From: Chloroflexota bacterium
Lineage (GTDB): Bacteria > Chloroflexota > Limnocylindria > Limnocylindrales > CSP1-4
Length of the DNA stretch: 7,907 nt
Direction of reading: 5' to 3'
NCBI GenBank assembly: GCA_021812735.1
Contig: JAKAMV010000450.1
Location: forward strand, 1 to 7,907
The first letter of the stretch is position 1, and each line of letters starts with the position of its first letter. Below the pieces are notes generated by a model, which was given only the letters and a program-made list of their open reading frames with translations, was not told the origin of the DNA and ran no database searches. Below, piece by piece: positions 1 to 7,797 of this stretch. The position numbers and the translations under genes were made by a program.

Positions 1-341
1 GGATGCACTTCGACGAGGTCTACCACGCCCGCACGGCGACCGAGTTCCTCCAGGACTGGCGCTACGGCATCTCGCACAACATCTACGAGTGGACCCACCC
101 GCACCTCGCGAAGTACATGATCGCGGGCGGGATCGTGGCCTTCGCCGGCCACGACGTGGCGGCCTCGAGCAACCTCGGCGTGGGCGTCAAGGACGCGGCG
201 ATCGAGCCCCGCTACCCGGACGCCACCTCGCCCGACGCGCGCGACGGCGACCGCGTCTGGGCGGTGACCGGCAGCCAGCTCATCGCCTACGACCTGCAGA
301 CCCGCAAGGTCGAGGCGACCTGGGACATCCCGCGCGCCTAG
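1..341 (+). CDS. PMT/GT39-family glycosyltransferase, N-terminal part (cut by window edge, ended by in-frame TAG)
   Basis: This is the visible front part of a protein O-mannosyltransferase-like (GT39) membrane enzyme, which transfers a sugar, typically mannose, from a polyprenyl-phosphate carrier to acceptors on the outer face of the membrane. The ATG at 3 is probably an internal Met. The family's catalytic Asp-Glu motif lies only three residues later (FDEVYHARTA), whereas relatives have a cytoplasmic tail and a first membrane helix before it, so the true start lies left of the window. Next comes the family's HPxLxK element (WTHPHLAKYMIAGG, residues 30-43). From about residue 52 the sequence leaves the PMT pattern and becomes soluble, with beta-strand-like text (RVWAVTGSQLIAYDLQTRKV). 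The frame ends at TAG 339-341 in the middle of this domain. The open frame at 345 continues in the same phase, so the two are halves of one gene. Whether it is a pseudogene, a sequencing error or a true break cannot be told from here. Confidence 0.8.
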   Translation, partial: MHFDEVYHARTATEFLQDWRYGISHNIYEWTHPHLAKYMIAGGIVAFAGHDVAASSNLGVGVKDAAIEPRYPDATSPDARDGDRVWAVTGSQLIAYDLQTRKVEATWDIPRA

Positions 342-1394
342 GCGGTGACGTATGAGGACACCGACCACGTCGTCACCGTGGCGACCAGCACGGGGGCGCT
401 CGAGACCGTCGACGCCACCTCGCTCGACCAGGTCCGGGCGGGCGTGAGCGGCGCCCGGCCGTCGCCCGTCACCGATCTCGGGACGCTCGCCTCCGGCCCG
501 GTCCAAGTCGTGGCCTGGGACAGCGGCGCACGTCTGGCCGCCCGCTTCGCCGACGGGTCCGTGGCGATCGTGGACGCGACGCCCGGGACCGCGACGACGG
601 GAAAGGTCATCGGCTCGGCCAAGTTCCACGGCGCGACCGACATGACCGACATGGGCGAGGGCGACGCCCTGGTGGCGACGCTGGCGAGCGTGCAGGACGC
701 CCCGACGACCGCCAAGACCCTCGCGGGCATCACCGGCGGCAGCGCCGCAGCCTACCAGAAGGCCCTCGAGACCACGAACGTCGCCAGCGTCGCCCTGGAC
801 GCGACGCTGGACAGCGACACCCGGGCCAAGCTCCAGACGGCGATCGACGCGAAGCAGCTGCCCGGCATCGCGATCGCCCAGGCGCCCCTCCTGGCCGTCG
901 CGGACGCGCGGGGCGTCGAGATGCTGGCCGACAACGCCGTGGTCGCCGACCGCGTCCTGCTCCCCGGCCCGGCGTTCGGCATCGCCAGCGTGACCGGCCT
1001 CAGCACGGGGAACCAGCTGTACGTCAGCACGCAGAGCAAGGACGGGACCACCCCGCAGCTCGCCTGGATCCTCACGTCCGGCAAGGATGCGGCCGCGGGA
1101 CCCTCCTTCAACGCCGACCAGAACATGCTGCAGATGCCGGGGCGCGTGACGCGCGTCCTGTTCGACGAGTCAGCGCAGATGGTCGAGGTCCTGGGCGAGA
1201 CCCCGGGCACGGGCGAGCCCACGGTCTACGTCGTCGAGCCGCACGGCAACGCCGTCTTCGCCGACCACAAGCTCGGGTTCACCCCCAGCGCCCTGGTGAT
1301 GGACCACAACGAGCTCTACCCGACGAGCAGCCAGGGCGAGATCCTCGCGTTCTCCGCGGCGGGCCAGGTGTCCCAGCTGGACATCGGCCACTAC
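156..1394 (+). other. Beta-propeller-like extracytoplasmic domain inserted in the PMT-like protein (spans the TAG)
   Basis: About 410 codons of soluble sequence lie between the HPHLAK element and the next predicted membrane helix, which starts near 1410 (MPGVILGALSAGLIYLLTR). The stretch contains repeated short beta-strand patterns with turn residues typical of propeller or PQQ-like blades: RVWAVTGSQLIAYDLQT; VVTVATSTGALETVDATS; RLAARFADGSVAIVDATP; QLYVSTQSKDGTTPQLAWIL; PTVYVVEPHGNAVFADHKL; GEILAFSAAGQVSQLDIG. Codons about 120-175 after the GTG at 345 look helical and may be an insertion or cap. Because it follows the catalytic first external loop, it should face outside the cell. The fold is judged from pattern only; the blade number is not resolved. 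Confidence 0.6.
339..341 (+). other. In-frame amber (TAG) codon splitting the PMT-like gene
   Basis: A TAG codon separates two open frames in the same phase. The flanking protein reads ...TWDIPRA, stop, AVTYEDTDHVVTVAT..., which is continuous beta-propeller-like sequence. A single base change from a sense codon (for example CAG or GAG) would give this; an indel would have shifted the phase. The same codon ends this gene at 3582-3584, and reading through there would run for hundreds of codons antisense to the neighbouring operon. General reassignment of TAG in this organism is therefore unlikely. Confidence 0.9.
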
Positions 1395-3584
1395 GACTTC
1401 TCGTGGCGCATGCCGGGCGTGATCCTCGGCGCGCTCAGCGCCGGCCTGATCTACCTGCTGACGCGGATCCTGTTCAAGCGCCGCCTGGTCGCCGGCCTGG
1501 CGGGGCTGTTCGTCCTGCTCGACGGGCTGATGTTCGTCCAGAGCCGCATCGCGATGAACGACGTCTACGTGGGCTTCTTCCTGCTTGCCGCGTACGTGCT
1601 GTTCGCCTGGCTCTGGGTGGAACCACGCCCCCGAAAGTGGTTCTGGGCGCTCATGCCAGTCATCGGCGTGCTGCTGGGGCTCGCCCTCGGGTCGAAGTGG
1701 GTGGCGGCGTACGCCATCGGCGCGCTCGGGATCCTGATCCTGCTCCGGTCCGCCTTCGGCCGCGTCGTCCTGATCGTGGGCATGGTGGCGGCGACCGCGC
1801 TGCTGGGCTGGATGGCGCTCGAAGTGCCGAGCGACAGCGGGTCCGTCGGCAACGTGATCTTCCCGCTGATCATGATCGTGCTGACGCTGGCCGCGGTGGC
1901 GATCTCCGTCTACCGGCCGATCGCGTGGTCGGACGACGAGATGCGGTTCGCGGTGGGCGGGCCGGCGGCTGCGGGCATCCTGCTGGCGCTGGCCGCGATC
2001 GCGCTGGGCAAGGTGGGCAGCTCGATCGCCCTGGGCCCGCTCAAGCTGACGCCGCTCCCCCTGGCGTTCCTGCTCATCCTGCTGGGCGGCCTCGCGTACC
2101 TCGCCTTCAACGTCGCCGGCCGGATGGGCATCGGCCCGATGGCGCTGCCCGACCCCGACCGCCCGCGGCTCGCCCCGGACCCGCCCCCCGAGGGCTGGCT
2201 GCGCCTGGGCGACGGGCTGGGGCTGTCGGTGCTGTGGTGGGCGGCATGCCTGCTGGTCGTGCCGGTGGTCGTCTACGTGCTGCTCTACATCCCGTGGGCC
2301 AACGTGGAGAACCACCAGATCGTGACTGCCGGGTTCCCCGGCTTCCCCCAGGGCTGGCCGCCGGGCCACACGGGGCAGACCCTCCTCGACCTCACCGGTC
2401 AGATGTACCAGTACCACAACGACCTGGCGACGACCCACCCGGCAAGCTCGCCCTGGTGGGCCTGGCCGCTCAACCTCAAGCCCGTGTGGTTCTACCAGGA
2501 CAGCTTCGCCAACGACAGCAGCGGCGCCATCTACGACGCCGGGACCCTCGCCATCTGGTGGATGTCGATCCCGGCCATGGCGTTCGCCGCCTACCAGGCG
2601 TTCAAGCGCCGGAGCCTGCCGCTCGCCCTGCTCCTGATCGGCTTCCTCGCGCAGTGGATCTCCTGGGCGAGGATCGATCGGGCTGCATTCCAGTACCACT
2701 ACTACACGAGCCTGCCGTTCCTGATCATCGCGCTGGCGTACTTCGCGGACGAGCTCTGGCACGGCGCGTCGAGGCGCACCTGGCTCCTGGCGCGGGTGGC
2801 CGCCGCAGTTGGGGTCATGGGCCCGGCGATCCTGTGGCTGTTCCGGCTGCCGCTCTGCCGCATCGCGGGCGTCGACCTGGTGGACAAGGGGTCGCAGGCG
2901 TGCAACGGCAACCCCGGCAACCTGGTCGTCACGCCGTCGGTGGGGGCGCTCGTGCTGGTCCTGCTGGTGGGCGGTGCCGTCCTCGTCTGGCAGCTCGTCA
3001 AGCTGAGCCGCCCGCGCTCCGACGGCAGGCCGCTCGAGGCGCGCGACGCGCAGGGCGTGCTCGCGACCGGCATCGTGGTGGTGGCGCTCGCGCTCCTGAC
3101 GCGGCTGCTGCCAGCGGACGGCGCGCTGTTCTCGGTCAACGGCCTCTCGCCGGAGCCGATCGCGATCGTGGGCCTCGCCCTCACGGGCCTGATCGCATCC
3201 CAGATCGTCACGGCGCGCGACGCCCGCCGGTTCGTCGGCGGGCTCGTGGCGGCGATCGCGGTCAACTTCGTGCTGCTGTACCCGGACATCTCGGGCCTGC
3301 CGCTGCCGTCGAGCCTGCTGCCCTGGTACCAGGGGGTGCTGCCGACCTACCTCTACCCGTTCCAGTTCTGGTCGAACCAGGCGAACCGCTCCGGCGCGAC
3401 GTCGTTCTCGGACATCCGGTTCCTCATCCTGGTGGCGTTCCTGGTGCTCGCCTCGATCGCGGTGGCGTACTCGGCGTGGACGTGGCGCCAGGCGCTGGCC
3501 GAGGAGGCTCGCGAGACGGGCGAGGACGGCGGCGGCGAGACGCCCATGAGCGGGCCGCACCCGGAGGCGACGGGCGAGGCCTAG
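345..3584 (+). CDS. PMT/GT39-family glycosyltransferase, main part (rest of propeller-like domain plus membrane core)
   Basis: This is the larger part (1,079 residues) of the gene broken at 339-341. The GTG at 345 is only the first possible start after the TAG and lies inside the propeller-like domain, so it is unlikely to be a natural start. Residues 1-350 complete that domain. Residues about 356-376 begin the membrane core. PMT marks follow: VQSRIAMND (R401, D406), GSKW (450-452), then the C-terminal PMT signature with MYQYHND (H691), THPASSPWWAWP (698-708) and VWFYQD, and later RIDRAAFQYHYY (776-787). I count roughly 18 hydrophobic segments. A proline-rich polar loop lies near 600-618 and a Gly/Glu-rich tail ends the protein. 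Well-known bacterial PMT enzymes are about 500 residues, so this one is more than twice as long: beyond the propeller, there is an enlarged middle (about 490-650) and four or five extra C-terminal helices (about 864-1045). Without the upstream catalytic DE loop this fragment alone should be inactive. The family call is firm; the acceptor is unknown. Confidence 0.85.
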   Translation: MTYEDTDHVVTVATSTGALETVDATSLDQVRAGVSGARPSPVTDLGTLASGPVQVVAWDSGARLAARFADGSVAIVDATPGTATTGKVIGSAKFHGATDMTDMGEGDALVATLASVQDAPTTAKTLAGITGGSAAAYQKALETTNVASVALDATLDSDTRAKLQTAIDAKQLPGIAIAQAPLLAVADARGVEMLADNAVVADRVLLPGPAFGIASVTGLSTGNQLYVSTQSKDGTTPQLAWILTSGKDAAAGPSFNADQNMLQMPGRVTRVLFDESAQMVEVLGETPGTGEPTVYVVEPHGNAVFADHKLGFTPSALVMDHNELYPTSSQGEILAFSAAGQVSQLDIGHYDFSWRMPGVILGALSAGLIYLLTRILFKRRLVAGLAGLFVLLDGLMFVQSRIAMNDVYVGFFLLAAYVLFAWLWVEPRPRKWFWALMPVIGVLLGLALGSKWVAAYAIGALGILILLRSAFGRVVLIVGMVAATALLGWMALEVPSDSGSVGNVIFPLIMIVLTLAAVAISVYRPIAWSDDEMRFAVGGPAAAGILLALAAIALGKVGSSIALGPLKLTPLPLAFLLILLGGLAYLAFNVAGRMGIGPMALPDPDRPRLAPDPPPEGWLRLGDGLGLSVLWWAACLLVVPVVVYVLLYIPWANVENHQIVTAGFPGFPQGWPPGHTGQTLLDLTGQMYQYHNDLATTHPASSPWWAWPLNLKPVWFYQDSFANDSSGAIYDAGTLAIWWMSIPAMAFAAYQAFKRRSLPLALLLIGFLAQWISWARIDRAAFQYHYYTSLPFLIIALAYFADELWHGASRRTWLLARVAAAVGVMGPAILWLFRLPLCRIAGVDLVDKGSQACNGNPGNLVVTPSVGALVLVLLVGGAVLVWQLVKLSRPRSDGRPLEARDAQGVLATGIVVVALALLTRLLPADGALFSVNGLSPEPIAIVGLALTGLIASQIVTARDARRFVGGLVAAIAVNFVLLYPDISGLPLPSSLLPWYQGVLPTYLYPFQFWSNQANRSGATSFSDIRFLILVAFLVLASIAVAYSAWTWRQALAEEARETGEDGGGETPMSGPHPEATGEA

Positions 3585-3592
3585 CGCCAGGC

Positions 3593-3643
3593 GAGGAGCC
3601 CGGGGACGAGATGCCCGCGCTGGCCCGCAAGTGGCTCCTCAGC
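3593..3643. terminator. Candidate bidirectional terminator between convergent genes
   Basis: An exact 8-bp inverted repeat, GAGGAGCC (3593-3600) and GGCTCCTC (3633-3640), encloses a GC-rich 32-base interior that can itself fold partly (CGGG 3601-3604 with CCCG at 3614-3617 or 3624-3627). Two further bases can pair outside a one-base bulge (GC 3591-3592 with 3642-3643). It lies in the 54-base gap between the end of the PMT-like gene and the end of the GT4 gene, where a shared terminator is expected. There is no T-run on either side, so a classical intrinsic terminator is not shown. Confidence 0.4.
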
Positions 3644-4826
3644 CCGCTGGGCCCACCCCGATCCGCGGCGACTGCGGCACCTCGGCGTGGAAGCCGGCCG
3701 GGAGCTGCCCGGCGGCGGCGAGGCGCCGGATGACGAAGCCGTAGTAGTCGTCCACCTTGGCGGTCACCCGCGGCCAGGAGAACCCCTCGGCCCGGACCAG
3801 CCCGTTCGCCGACATCTGCGCAGCAAGCTCGCGGTCGCCCAGCAGCCGCTCGATCGCGGCGGCGAGCTCCTTGGGCTCGTGCGGCGGCACCAGCAGCGCC
3901 TCGCGGCCCCGCCGGACCACGCCCTTGTAGCCGTGGATGTCCGAGGCCACGATCGGCGCGCCCGCGGCCATGGCCTCGAGCAGCACGATGCCGAACGACT
4001 CCCGGCCGGTGGCAGGCGAGGTGTAGACGTCCGCGGTCCGGAACAACTGGAGCTTCTCGTCGTCGGAGACGCGTCCCAGGAATTCCACGCCGCTGAGCCG
4101 GCGCGTCGCCACGTAGCGGCGCGCCTCGCGCTCCTGCGGGCCGCCGCCCACCAGCAGGAGCCTCGCCTCGATGCCGTCCTTGCGGATCTGGCGGTAGGCC
4201 TTGAGCAGGTCGAGCACACCCTTGCGCGGCTCGAACCGCCCGACGAACAGGATGTTCGGCGTGCCGTCCCTCCAGCGGGCCAGCGGGACCGCACGCCCGT
4301 ACCGGTCCGCGTCCACGCCGTTGGGGATCACCTTGTAGTCGCCCGGGAAGTAGCGGTCGATGAAGTGGCGCGCCGCTGCCGAGACCGCGATCCGCCCGTG
4401 CAGCCGCGCCGCGTCGCCCCGGAGGACCCGGCTGCCGAACTCATAGGCGGGCGACCAGCCCCCATAGGCGTGGAACGTGCCGATGTTGACGCTGTCCGAG
4501 AGCCGGAGCACCACCGGCGACAGGAACGGCACGAACGGCTCGTGGAAGTGGAGCAGGTCGAAGCGCTCCCGCTCGAGCACGGCATGGACCTGGCTGAGGA
4601 ACCGCGGCGAGACCGTGATGGTCCCCATCGAGCCGTTGGCCGGCATCGAGAAGCCCTTGCCGAGGCGGATGACGTCGCCCTCTGACGAGCGCTGGAGGCC
4701 GTGCGAGGACGTGATGATGCGGACGTCGTGGCCGCGCAGCCGCAGGTTCTCGTACAGGTACCGGACGTGCTGGGTGACGCCGCCCGGGAGCGGGTACACG
4801 TACGGCGAGACGAGGCCGATCTTCAC
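3639..4826 (-). CDS. GT4 glycosyltransferase, PimA-like (phosphatidyl-inositol mannosyltransferase type)
   Basis: This is a 395-residue GT-B fold retaining glycosyltransferase. PimA-type enzymes transfer mannose from GDP-mannose to phosphatidylinositol on the inner face of the membrane. The N-terminus MKIGLVSPYVYPLPGGVTQH has the family's Gly-Gly loop (G15-G16). LLHFHEPFVP (91-100) and GTFHAYGG (H119) sit where PimA has its acceptor-side histidines. The donor site is shown by IPNGVD (167-172), VGRFEPRKG with R197 and K202, and GRESFGIVLLEAMAAG with E276 and E284. Length and motif order match PimA closely. There is no signal peptide or membrane helix, which fits a peripheral enzyme. The start is GTG at 4826, nine bases after the PHP gene's stop and preceded by a plausible ribosome site. 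It is the last gene of the operon, after two acyltransferases, which supports a lipid acceptor. Related GT4 enzymes (PimB-like, or other lipid or exopolysaccharide transferases) share these motifs, so family is near certain but the exact sugar and acceptor are inferred. Confidence 0.9.
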   Translation of the reverse strand: MKIGLVSPYVYPLPGGVTQHVRYLYENLRLRGHDVRIITSSHGLQRSSEGDVIRLGKGFSMPANGSMGTITVSPRFLSQVHAVLERERFDLLHFHEPFVPFLSPVVLRLSDSVNIGTFHAYGGWSPAYEFGSRVLRGDAARLHGRIAVSAAARHFIDRYFPGDYKVIPNGVDADRYGRAVPLARWRDGTPNILFVGRFEPRKGVLDLLKAYRQIRKDGIEARLLLVGGGPQEREARRYVATRRLSGVEFLGRVSDDEKLQLFRTADVYTSPATGRESFGIVLLEAMAAGAPIVASDIHGYKGVVRRGREALLVPPHEPKELAAAIERLLGDRELAAQMSANGLVRAEGFSWPRVTAKVDDYYGFVIRRLAAAGQLPAGFHAEVPQSPRIGVGPAG

Positions 4827-4834
4827 GCGGGAAG

Positions 4835-4842
4835 CCTACCCC
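4835..4842 (-). promoter_or_regulatory. Ribosome binding site for the GT4 gene
   Basis: On the minus strand GGGGTAGG lies eight bases before the GTG start at 4826. It overlaps the TAG stop of the PHP gene (4838-4836), so translation of the two genes is probably coupled. It supports choosing the GTG. Confidence 0.5.
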
Positions 4843-5642
4843 GTGCGGAACCGGGGCGGGCGCTCCGTGCCGCCGGGATACCCGAGGTCGCGGCCGGTCC
4901 CGTTGCGACGGATCCGCCCGTTGGTGTCGGCCGCGATATCGCGCGCGTACTTGGACAGCTGGCGTCTGTAGACGCCGATCTGGCCGAGTGAGCTGTGGAA
5001 CGAGCCGTGGGGCGCTGTGGTGCCGGCGGCGATCGCGGCGCGCAGCTCGTCTGGGGTGCGGCCGGGGAACGTCGACCAGCCCGAGGCGATGGCGACGTTG
5101 ATGTGGGCGTCGCTGTTGCCCACCTCGGCCAGCCCGTGCTCCTTCGCGAACTTGACGCTGGCACGGTGGCCCCACTTGCCGAGGGCCGTGGGGTTGAAGG
5201 TCTCGAGCGCGTCGGGTCGAACCGACGGGTCGTCCGAGGTCACCAGGGGGCGCAGGGAGAAGCCCTGCGCGCAGATGTGGACGGGCGCGAACGGATGTGC
5301 CGGGATCGCGATGCCGCCCTGGTCGTGGATCGCCTCGATCGACCACCGCAGGCTCTTCCAGGGCGGCACCGGGCGGTCTAGGAACAGGCCGAGCAGGTGG
5401 CCGCCCCGGGTGGTGATCTCCTCGCCCACCACGACAGCAACGCGCATGCCCCGGTCGAGGGCGATCGCGCGGCCCGCCAGCCCGGCGTCGATCCGCTCGT
5501 GGTCGGCGATGGCGACCACGTCGAGGAACCCGGTGGACTCGATGTGCTCGAGCACATCGACCACCGATGCCGTGCCGTCCGACGCCCAGGTGTGGACGTG
5601 GAGGTCGGCTCGCCCCAACCGCTCGAGTGAATCCTCGGTCAC
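4836..5642 (-). CDS. PHP-family metal-dependent phosphoesterase
   Basis: This 268-residue protein has the complete PHP metal-site set: DLHVHTWASDGT (H15, H17, D22), ADHERID (D47, H48), VGEEIT (E74), IPAHPF (H116) and GNSDAH (D178, H180). These side chains bind a metal cluster that hydrolyses phosphate esters. Stand-alone PHP proteins of this size include the TrpH/YciV (RNase AM) type, which acts on nucleoside 3',5'-bisphosphates and RNA 5' ends, and histidinol-phosphatase types. The HVHTxxSDGT start and the SDAH motif fit the TrpH-like group better, but the substrate cannot be read from sequence. The last 30 or so residues are Arg/Gly/Pro-rich and probably disordered. The GTG start at 5642 overlaps the previous stop (GTGA) and has a good ribosome site. 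The stop is TAG; the next gene is in the same frame after three codons. Its place in a glycolipid operon could mean a headgroup-phosphate or nucleotide by-product role, but conserved linkage without direct function is equally possible. Confidence 0.9.
   Translation of the reverse strand: MTEDSLERLGRADLHVHTWASDGTASVVDVLEHIESTGFLDVVAIADHERIDAGLAGRAIALDRGMRVAVVVGEEITTRGGHLLGLFLDRPVPPWKSLRWSIEAIHDQGGIAIPAHPFAPVHICAQGFSLRPLVTSDDPSVRPDALETFNPTALGKWGHRASVKFAKEHGLAEVGNSDAHINVAIASGWSTFPGRTPDELRAAIAAGTTAPHGSFHSSLGQIGVYRRQLSKYARDIAADTNGRIRRNGTGRDLGYPGGTERPPRFRTG
5539..5560. repeat. Perfect 22-bp palindrome inside the PHP gene
   Basis: The half-site TCGATGTGCTC is followed immediately by its exact reverse complement, with no spacer, centred on CTCGAG. 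It covers codons 28-35 of the PHP gene (V-V-D-V-L-E-H-I-E region). It could be an operator-like protein site or an RNA hairpin, or a chance result of the codons GTG CTC GAG CAC. No function is shown. Confidence 0.85.
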
Positions 5643-6715
5643 GCGTTGTCCCCTTCGCTGACGGCCAGGTCGGGCCAGATCGGGTGGAAGGCCCCGAACC
5701 ACTGCTCCGGACCGTCGGCCAGCAGTGTCTCGAACACTTTGGCCATCTCGGTGGTGATGGCGGTGACGCGCTCGCGCAGGCGCCCCTTGGCATCGGTCGG
5801 GATCTGGATCAGCTTGCCGCGGTAGCGCAGGTGCGGCGCCCGCCTTGCGGAGCCGGCGTAGATGGGCAGCCCCGTCTCGACCGCAAGCAATGCCGGCCCG
5901 GCGGGCAGCGGCGCCGGGTGCCCGAAGAACGGCACCATGATCCCGTTGTGGAGCAGGTCGCGGTCCGCAACCAGGCCGACCGATTCCCCGCGCTTGATCG
6001 CCGCCATCAGCGCGGGGCGCGCCTCGGTCATCGACACCACGTTCACGCCCGAACGCCTCCGCGAGTCCATGAACCACCGGGCGAGGACCGGGTCGCCGAC
6101 GATCTCCATCGGGGCGGTGACGCGGTGGCCCACCATCTCGCTCACGACGAGCACGGGCACCTCGATCGAGCCGTAGTGGAGGCCCGTCAGGATGACCGGC
6201 TTGCCGGACCGAAGCGCCTCTGTCACCTCGCCGGGCGTCTCGATGTCGATGCGCGCCAGCGTGTCGGCGGCGTCCCGGCTCCCGACTCGGGCCATCTCGA
6301 GGTAGTAGCGGGCGGCGTGGCGGAAGGCACGCCGGACGATCAACTCCAGGGCGTCCGGGTCGGTGGCCGCGCGCCGCACCAGCGAGGATCCGCGGCCCTG
6401 CGCCGCCAGCCCTTCGCAGACGCGGCCCAGGTTCGCGCGGGCCTGCGCCGCCTTGGCGGGTGCGATGCGGTACCACAGCTCGCCGATCGACTCGGCCGCT
6501 GCGACGAGCGGGCCCTCGGGCAGCGCGCCGAGCAGGCGCGTCCCAGCCACGATGGCGCTGCCCTTGAGGCTCCTCGCGGCGCCCGGGCTCGCGTGCACTC
6601 GCCCGCCCGGCCCGTCAGCCGACCCAGGTCCAGCCGACGCAGGGCGGCCTTGCCCCGTGGTCCCGGCGGGCCTGGTGGACTCTGCGGATCCTGCGGACCC
6701 GGGGTCGCCCGTCAC
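5639..6715 (-). CDS. HtrB/LpxL/PatA-family lipid acyltransferase (second of tandem pair)
   Basis: This 358-residue protein belongs to the LpxL/HtrB-like acyltransferases, which move a fatty acyl chain from acyl-CoA or acyl-ACP onto a glycolipid at the inner membrane face. Visible marks are ARANLGRVC (residues 92-100), the catalytic HxxxxE motif in TGLHYGSIEVP (H180, E185), VADRDLL (D251), VPFFGHP (262-267), PLPAGPALLA (269-278) and the closing QWFGAFHPIWPD (338-349). The first 45 or so residues are Gly/Ser/Pro/Ala-rich low-complexity sequence with no family match. The GTG at 6715 is preferred because it gives a GTGA overlap with the previous stop, as at the neighbouring junctions; a later start near residue 40 is possible. 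The frame stays open far upstream of this GTG, but that region is the upstream acyltransferase gene in another phase. In actinobacteria the relative PatA acylates a mannose of phosphatidylinositol mannosides; with a PimA-like gene two positions downstream, a similar role is a reasonable inference. Confidence 0.88.
   Translation of the reverse strand: MTGDPGSAGSAESTRPAGTTGQGRPASAGPGSADGPGGRVHASPGAARSLKGSAIVAGTRLLGALPEGPLVAAAESIGELWYRIAPAKAAQARANLGRVCEGLAAQGRGSSLVRRAATDPDALELIVRRAFRHAARYYLEMARVGSRDAADTLARIDIETPGEVTEALRSGKPVILTGLHYGSIEVPVLVVSEMVGHRVTAPMEIVGDPVLARWFMDSRRRSGVNVVSMTEARPALMAAIKRGESVGLVADRDLLHNGIMVPFFGHPAPLPAGPALLAVETGLPIYAGSARRAPHLRYRGKLIQIPTDAKGRLRERVTAITTEMAKVFETLLADGPEQWFGAFHPIWPDLAVSEGDNA
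5649..5656 (-). promoter_or_regulatory. Ribosome binding site for the PHP gene
   Basis: On the minus strand GAAGGGGA ends six bases before the GTG at 5642, inside the last codons of the upstream acyltransferase. It is the clearest Shine-Dalgarno sequence among the operon's internal junctions and supports the GTG start. Confidence 0.6.
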
Positions 6716-7797
6716 ACGGGCCCGCCGACAGTCGCCGGGGCATCCGCGCCCGGCGTGCCCGCGCCCGGCGTCTCGGCCGCCGCAGCGGTCGAGACGGGAG
6801 TCGGCGTCCCGGACCGCCCGGCGAGCATCTCCATCGCCCGGCGCTCGAGCTCGGCCGCCTCCGCATCGCTGTCCGGCCACATCGGCTTGAAGCTGTACCA
6901 CTGGACCGGCGCCGCGGCGATCGTGCGCTCCAGGGCGTCGGCGATCCGCTGCGTGGCCCGCTGGAGGTCGGCGGGATTCGACGAGGGCACGGTGAACGTC
7001 TCGTCCGCGATCACCTCGAAGCGTCCGCCCGTGATCCGGCGGACCTCCATCGGCGCGATCGCGGCGCCCGTCTTGGCGGCCAGCACGGCGGGTCCCGCGG
7101 GCAGCGTGGTCCAGGCGCCGAACAGCTTGACCGGGATCCCGTCCGGCCGGTAGCCCCAGTCCACCAGCAGCGCCAGGATCTCCTTGCGCCGCAGGATCGA
7201 GAACAGCTCGCGCAGGTTCCGCCACGGCACCACGTGGACGCCCCACGACTCGCGGTTCTGGCGCAGGATCTCGAAGATCTCCGGGAAGGCAGAGTCGTCG
7301 GCGACGACGTTGGCGGGCAGGCCGCGCGACGCCACGCCGGCCGCGACCGCCTCGTTGTTCCCCACGTGGCCCGCGCACACGATCATCGCCTTGCCGTGGG
7401 CGCGCCACGCATCGACGATCTTGTCCACGCCGTCGCCCGCGATCAGCTTCGCCACATCGTCGGCGGGCTGCGCGGGCAGCCGCATGATCTCGACCATGTA
7501 GCGCGCGTACTCCCGGTACGCCCGCAGTGCCAGGCGGCGGACCCGCGGATGGTCGGGCGGGAGCCCCAGCACGTGGCCGAAGTTGGTGTTCGAGAAGCGC
7601 CGCTTCTTCGGCCAGAACAGGTACGAGAGCTGGTTGAAGCTGCCGATGACGGGCACGGTCAGCCGGGTCGGCAGATGCACCAAAGCGGCGGCCATCGACT
7701 TGTAGCCGATAACCGCCGCCTTCTCCACGATGCGCGGAGGGGTGGCCTCGAGGCGCCGGTGCGGCGCCTCGAGCTTCGGTTCCTTGGGTTCGGTCAC
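6712..7797 (-). CDS. HtrB/LpxL/PatA-family lipid acyltransferase (first of tandem pair)
   Basis: This 361-residue protein is in the same acyltransferase family as its downstream neighbour but clearly diverged. Visible marks are FSNTNFGHVLG (residues 68-78, the conserved Asn region before the catalytic part), the HxxxxE motif in CAGHVGNNEAV (H144, E149), LLVDWGYRPDG (D213), VKLFG (223-227), TLPAGPAVLA (231-240) and the closing QWYSFKPMWPD (299-309). Residues 29-61 are moderately hydrophobic and may sit on or in the membrane. The last 30 or so residues are a Thr/Pro/Gly/Ala tail containing a short tandem repeat. The GTG start at 7797 overlaps the previous stop (GTGA), and a strong hairpin lies 24 bases inside the gene. 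The expected reaction is transfer of an acyl chain to a glycolipid or lipid headgroup. Which of the two acyltransferases acts first, and at which position, cannot be inferred. Confidence 0.88.
   Translation of the reverse strand: MTEPKEPKLEAPHRRLEATPPRIVEKAAVIGYKSMAAALVHLPTRLTVPVIGSFNQLSYLFWPKKRRFSNTNFGHVLGLPPDHPRVRRLALRAYREYARYMVEIMRLPAQPADDVAKLIAGDGVDKIVDAWRAHGKAMIVCAGHVGNNEAVAAGVASRGLPANVVADDSAFPEIFEILRQNRESWGVHVVPWRNLRELFSILRRKEILALLVDWGYRPDGIPVKLFGAWTTLPAGPAVLAAKTGAAIAPMEVRRITGGRFEVIADETFTVPSSNPADLQRATQRIADALERTIAAAPVQWYSFKPMWPDSDAEAAELERRAMEMLAGRSGTPTPVSTAAAAETPGAGTPGADAPATVGGPV
6744..6773. repeat. 15-bp tandem duplication in the acyltransferase C-terminal tail
   Basis: CCGCGCCCGGCGT occurs exactly at 6744-6756 and again at 6759-6771, a 15-base period (13 of 15 bases identical). 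On the minus strand it encodes the repeated peptide T-P-G-A-G / T-P-G-A-D in the low-complexity tail of the first acyltransferase. It is probably replication slippage in linker sequence. Confidence 0.7.
7747..7773 (-). promoter_or_regulatory. Strong hairpin early in the first acyltransferase coding region
   Basis: The arm CTCGAGGCGCCG (7747-7758) and its exact complement (7762-7773) form a 12-bp, almost all G/C stem with a three-base loop. On the mRNA it covers codons 9-17 (L-E-A-P-H-R-R-L-E) and begins 24 bases after the GTG start. Such a hairpin can affect ribosome initiation, mRNA processing or transcription between operon genes. It has no T-run and so is not a classical terminator. The structure is directly visible; the function is a guess. 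Confidence 0.6.

Follow-up and report, generated by a model that had tools for sequence, protein, structure and literature searches.

A predicted beta-propeller in the catalytic loop of a two-module, PMT-type membrane glycosyltransferase of Chloroflexota

The long gene and its inserted propeller

The stretch of DNA analysed here, hereafter the window, comprises 7,907 nucleotides of contig JAKAMV010000450.1 of a Chloroflexota bacterium (assembly GCA_021812735.1). Its + strand harbours the 3′ portion of a long gene (3..3584) encoding a GT-C module of the protein O-mannosyltransferase (PMT) type, with a predicted beta-propeller inserted in loop 1. The gene runs as a single frame from base 3 to the stop codon at 3582-3584, broken by one in-frame TAG at 342-344. 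The homologue at locus L001 (L001:6237-11579) is its closest relative, with 95% identity across 1193 common codons, and possesses an uninterrupted frame of 1781 residues. Since that frame is open throughout, the window lacks the first ~590 codons of the gene, and intact relatives encode another membrane module in this upstream part. The gene most likely belongs to a Limnocylindria-type Chloroflexota and encodes a GT-C glycosyltransferase of ~1780 residues with two modules, of which the window carries the 3′ portion; this architecture is well supported.

The second module, encoded in the window, possesses the loop-1 DE motif and the loop-2 Asp of PMT/GT39 enzymes. The FDE motif of the catalytic loop is located at 9..17, the HPHLAK motif of the same loop at 96..113, and the second conserved Asp, within R-I-x-M-N-D of loop 2, at 1560..1562 (all + strand). 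In the A2 alignment, which holds 56 of the 64 second modules from the relatives described below, the FDE motif, the H, P, A and K of HPHLAK and the loop-2 Asp are invariant; FDE aligns with the FDE of Pmt1 and Pmt4, and the loop-2 Asp with their LLD/LDA segment. The membrane helix that follows the insert, helix 2, corresponds to helix 488-515 of the module model and was mapped via L001 to 1392..1475 (+ strand). The Pfam models PMT and PMT_4TMC matched the second module with 56 bits (cut-off 22.7) and 48.9 bits (cut-off 32.4), respectively, and its predicted structure has the PMT membrane fold. A MIR domain was not detected by Pfam at E ≤ 1 in the full-length proteins of L001, L053, L034 and L057, and MIR was rejected on this ground as the identity of the insert. 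Its fold and motifs mark the second module as PMT-type, and it is not a MIR-bearing PMT. Public names of the homologues vary or stay general, such as 'phospholipid carrier-dependent glycosyltransferase' among the matches listed.

An earlier note on this DNA, made from the sequence alone, had placed an insert of about 410 residues at 156..1394, between the DE loop with HPxLxK and the next membrane helix, and had described it as a beta-rich, propeller-like domain. Both proposals agree with the structure prediction. The strands of the model span 144..1382 (+ strand), the helix begins at ~1392, and the insert is predicted with high confidence to be a propeller of the YncE/PQQ/WD40 type, with seven blades by our count, broken by the TAG in this copy. 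Relative to fungal Pmt4 (9i5k), loop 1 contains ~391 extra residues, profile columns 42 and 480 corresponding to chain residues 98 and 145; this match has an E-value of 5e-5 as a whole, and the segments around the two columns are each weak alone. No named Pfam propeller family was found above its cut-off, and the L001 insert remained without a match. The PQQ_2 model reached 25.6 and 25.8 bits in proteins P0023 and P0034, below its cut-off of 27.6.

Blades 6, 7, 1 and 2, the sector at which the chain passes into and out of the propeller, hold the highest density of positions kept in at least 75% of 64 inserts, and blades 3-5 are more variable. In the predicted model, this pattern is consistent with a tethered side of the propeller resting on the membrane module. 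A published description of a PMT-type enzyme with a propeller in loop 1 was not found in the open-licence papers searched.

Relatives, reading frame and the in-frame TAG

A scan of species genomes with patterns drawn from the DE loop, the insert and the membrane part of the window protein itself recovered 79 related loci, 78 of them labelled Chloroflexi, Chloroflexota, Thermomicrobiales or Limnocylindrales. A single open frame encodes all three of these parts in 64 of the 79 loci, in agreement with the proposal of the earlier note that the soluble and membrane parts belong to one protein and not to separate genes. With the propeller predicted in the insert as well, neither of the two findings that the note had named as refuting was obtained; the upstream module, the piece nested in the propeller and the private nature of the TAG lay outside its reach. 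Of the other fifteen loci, ten are truncated where their contig ends, four (L058, L063, L065 and L079) are split between frames at differing sites, and L049 was matched in the membrane part only. Some database proteins are partial as well, with P0041 lacking the membrane part, and P0053 having the membrane part without the DE loop. The gene is also present at the locus labelled Steroidobacteraceae (L057), which groups with Chloroflexota in the tree described below; its contig is perhaps misplaced.

The insert region of an intact relative matched 82 proteins at E ≤ 1e-3, and that of a distant relative matched 371. The insert is therefore conserved beyond chance. One database protein, P0130, found among the best 120 of the 371 matches to the distant relative, is labelled Methylomirabilota. 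A long frame of 1777-2337 residues with a PMT domain was present once per genome in 12 of 12 genomes. In a sample of 301 genomes of the phylum, the insert profile matched 96 at E ≤ 1e-3, mostly through weak matches to propellers or penicillin-binding proteins (PBPs), and 29 at E < 1e-15. Many uncultured Chloroflexota appear to carry this very large enzyme with a predicted propeller in its active-site loop.

The TAG (342..344, + strand) lies in strand a of blade 2 and is private to the window copy. Among the 79 loci, 78 have a match spanning this codon, and all 78 are free of a stop at it. The ratio of non-synonymous to synonymous substitution rates (dN/dS) against L001 is 0.155 overall, with 0.107 ahead of the TAG, 0.169 in the part of the propeller that follows it and 0.144 in the membrane part, and the frame is kept. 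Given the stop-free loci and the purifying selection on a kept frame, the TAG is either a sequence error or a very recent mutation or loss in this copy. With no stop at this position in the covering loci, decoding of TAG as a residue in this lineage is unsupported. The column count over 147 rows is not proof on this point by itself, because its rows were selected as open frames.

A nested piece in blade 4

A nested helical piece of ~62 residues (681..866, + strand) lies within blade 4 of the propeller and resembles the N-terminal pedestal of class B PBPs, matching the beginning of PBP_dimer (PF03717). The blade-4 region comprises at least 94 residues in 48 of 64 inserts, in which the piece is present, and 22-31 residues in the remaining 16, from which it is therefore missing. 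Three inserts (L031, L073 and L075) are much longer, with 516-550 residues; their corresponding region has 132-209 residues, compared with ~95 elsewhere, and represents further additions at the same site.

As a stronger test of this likeness than the PDB search described below, the profile built from all inserts was searched against the 301 genomes, with up to six candidates scored per genome. Forty matches in other proteins were confined to profile positions 138-263, and thirty-nine of them lie inside PF03717 matches on the same strand; thirty-seven of these begin 3-23 residues into the PF03717 match, and two begin 6 and 12 residues ahead of it. The fortieth, in genome G288, is not within any PBP match and argues against the likeness. 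The forty do not include two matches, in G281 and G151, that overlap the piece partially. A profile of the piece alone, searched in 23 genomes, found the long gene in all ten genomes chosen because their insert has the piece and in none of the thirteen chosen because it lacks the piece. It also matched 14 other frames of 615-900 residues; four of these are in genomes scanned for PF03717, and all four coincide with it.

A search of the PDB was performed with the profile A3, which was made from 41 of the 48 nested pieces and is restricted to lengths of 80-110 residues. It detected the PBP 4ovd at 3e-8, and other PBPs at 0.0068 and worse. Two kinds of chain in the same search also speak against the likeness, a 'CAP repeat' chain (1.5e-7) and designed armadillo chains (3.7e-4 and worse). 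Comparison with profiles of host PBPs, five per group, gave P-values of 2e-5 and 1.5e-6 with probabilities of 77 and 90. At the level of sequence profiles, the piece appears to match PBP_dimer proteins specifically. The likeness to class B PBPs is limited to a stretch of ~75 residues, with the order strand-helix-helix-strand-helix-strand in the model, whereas the Chloroflexota protein differs by the surrounding propeller and has no transpeptidase domain. Complete PBP_dimer and transpeptidase domains were not matched by Pfam in the four full-length proteins searched for MIR.

In a tree built from the membrane part and rooted at the midpoint only, 42 rows possess the piece and 14 do not; two changes explain this distribution, and none of 500 shuffles was as low. 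One example of such a history is a gain once four distant rows had branched off, and a loss in a ten-row clade. The piece alone differs between the window and L001 by 3 synonymous and 4 other changes, a number too small for judgement. MreC was rejected as a reason for the piece, as there was no association. It is present in 20 of the 23 genomes, namely in 9 of the 10 that have the piece and in 11 of the 13 that lack it.

Neighbouring genes, possible acceptors and the role of the propeller

The N-terminal ~440 residues of intact relatives make up a further membrane protein, which carries conserved Asp residues together with motifs resembling DYxPGYLY and PTRxHERY; in L001 this first module is encoded at 6306-7610. 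In A4, which holds the 42 of 46 first modules past the length filter, GT87 was matched in 26 and Alg6_Alg8 in 20 at E ≤ 0.01, with scores near or below the Pfam cut-offs (GT87 with 25.2 bits in P0021, 25.4 in P0029 and 23.8 in L001, cut-off 25). Solved relatives were not found by sequence, the two matches obtained (E 0.14 and 0.19) being unrelated chains. We read the first module as a second, GT87/ALG6-like GT-C enzyme. It would share its type with GT87 and ALG6-ALG8 (GT57) enzymes, and is here fused ahead of a PMT-type module.

Downstream of the long gene, the window harbours a convergent set of genes on the - strand (3639-7797); the counts given here include only loci with enough flank. The set comprises a GT4 glycosyltransferase (3639..4826; PF00534, 134.4 bits; 53 of 55 loci), a PHP-type metallohydrolase (4836..5642; PHP_C, 38.5 bits, cut-off 21.3; 52 of 53 loci), a lipid acyltransferase with an uncertain gene start (5639..6610; PF03279, 112.3 bits), and a second lipid acyltransferase (6712..7797; PF03279, 106.4 bits; 42 of 44 loci). 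Beyond the extent of the window, L001, where the whole set occupies 11638-17880, possesses an Ino1 homologue (26 of 32 loci) and a CDP-alcohol phosphatidyltransferase (27 of 29 loci). Inositol-phosphate lipid synthases are among the closest solved relatives of the latter. We take this gene set to resemble the phosphatidylinositol mannoside genes of actinobacteria, and a phosphatidylinositol mannoside-like pathway in Chloroflexota is possible. Upstream of the long gene, L001 possesses a GT2 gene (kept in 49 of 52 loci). The region L001:3001-6226 (- strand) encodes a TMEM260-like protein (PF11028, 49 of 55 loci) and a 508-residue protein without a Pfam match (53 of 59 loci), which are possibly further membrane glycosyltransferases.

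Eukaryotic PMTs (Pmt1/Pmt2/Pmt4 and POMT1/2, GT39) share with the second module the GT-C fold, the loop-1 DE motif, the loop-2 Asp, a loop-4 segment, and an extramembrane beta domain close to the active site, which in the second module is a predicted one. According to PMC12705809, their DE motif lies between transmembrane helices (TM) 1 and 2 and their MIR domain between TM7 and TM8. This topology and the Pmt4 match agree with two further points of the earlier note, that the inserted domain is located outside the cell beside the active site and that MIR occupies a different loop. Eukaryotic PMTs carry a MIR beta-trefoil in loop 4 (PMC12705809 and PMC7759382), whereas the Chloroflexota enzyme has its predicted propeller in loop 1 and an extra membrane module in front. 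For the fungal MIR domain, which lies beside the active site, PMC12705809 proposes that it binds the mannosylated product and keeps the enzyme processive. The actinobacterial MtPMT of Mycobacterium tuberculosis resembles the enzyme studied here in being bacterial and in the catalytic Asp residues of its loops 1 and 2; it is reported to lack a bulky soluble domain and to use a WW-like hairpin of loop 4 (PMC12331936). YncE and other YVTN/PQQ/WD40 propellers are free-standing or part of other proteins, whereas the present propeller is found within a membrane-enzyme loop and contains the nested piece.

The reading to which we give about an even chance is that the PMT-type enzyme moves a sugar, most likely mannose, onto exported proteins, and that the propeller selects, guides or gates the acceptor. 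A polyprenyl-phosphate sugar would enter the GT-C cavity from the membrane at the outer face, the loop-1 Asp would act as the base that activates the acceptor hydroxyl, and the sugar would be handed to an exported protein. The propeller, in the same loop right behind the catalytic motifs, would sit over or beside the active site and hold, guide, select or gate the acceptor, doing in loop 1 the job attributed to the loop-4 MIR domain of eukaryotic PMTs. Several observations weigh against this reading. The NCBIfam model of bacterial protein O-mannosyltransferases, NF058602, reached only 51.7 bits with an equivalog cut-off of 800, and the second module is not filed as its equivalog for this reason. 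Some homologues are named '4-amino-4-deoxy-L-arabinose transferase-like' (ArnT-like) among the matches listed. The best solved relatives of the GT2 neighbour are ArnC enzymes, ahead of dolichol-phosphate mannose synthase, and the conserved neighbours point to inositol lipids rather than proteins as acceptors.

A lipid acceptor is a serious rival, which we consider possible but doubtful: an inositol-phospholipid mannoside or lipomannan-like glycolipid would be extended, the two GT-C modules would add successive sugars, and the propeller would hold the growing glycan. The retention of the GT4, acyltransferase, CDP-alcohol and Ino1 genes, and the closeness of the CDP-alcohol enzyme to inositol-phosphate lipid synthases, favour this explanation, as does the GT87/ALG6-like first module, since GT87 includes PimE-type lipid mannosyltransferases. 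For one cultured Chloroflexota species, phosphatidylinositol, unidentified glycolipids and cell-wall mannose are reported in PMC12453558. However, the second module resembles PMTs in fold and motifs, a family known for protein acceptors, neighbourhood does not equal function, and the NCBIfam models for inositol-lipid and mannoside acyltransferases stayed below cut-off.

That the propeller is a scaffold joining the two modules or other envelope proteins, with the PBP-like piece as a docking element, is unlikely. Propellers often bind proteins, and the nested piece resembles the PBP pedestal, which in PBP2 is a site where MreC binds (PMC10257715). Nonetheless, the inserts that lack the piece retain the remaining propeller, and MreC does not track the piece. 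We regard as similarly improbable the related idea that the piece was taken over from a PBP and couples the mannosyltransferase to the peptidoglycan-synthesis machinery, with the propeller as coupling disc; if true, glycosylation of exported proteins or lipoglycans would be tied in space and time to wall growth. Finally, an artefact joining two genes, or a decayed gene with an unrelated soluble part, might be suspected from the TAG, the four split loci and the partial P0041 and P0053, but is very improbable and rejected at the family level by the 64 single-frame loci, the differing split sites, the position of the TAG inside the propeller and the low dN/dS on both sides of it.

The Chloroflexota enzyme may be a variant of the protein O-mannosyltransferases in which a propeller does the job of another domain in fungi and animals. 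Eukaryotic PMTs have a bulky soluble domain that bacterial PMTs are reported to lack, and PMC12331936 counts the means by which the latter make up for this among the open questions. The propeller family would be a bacterial candidate answer, with a different beta domain in the very loop of the catalytic Asp. It also contains a stretch that may be common to a mannosyltransferase and penicillin-binding proteins, and would place two fused membrane glycosyltransferases beside inositol-lipid genes in a phylum with a little-studied envelope.
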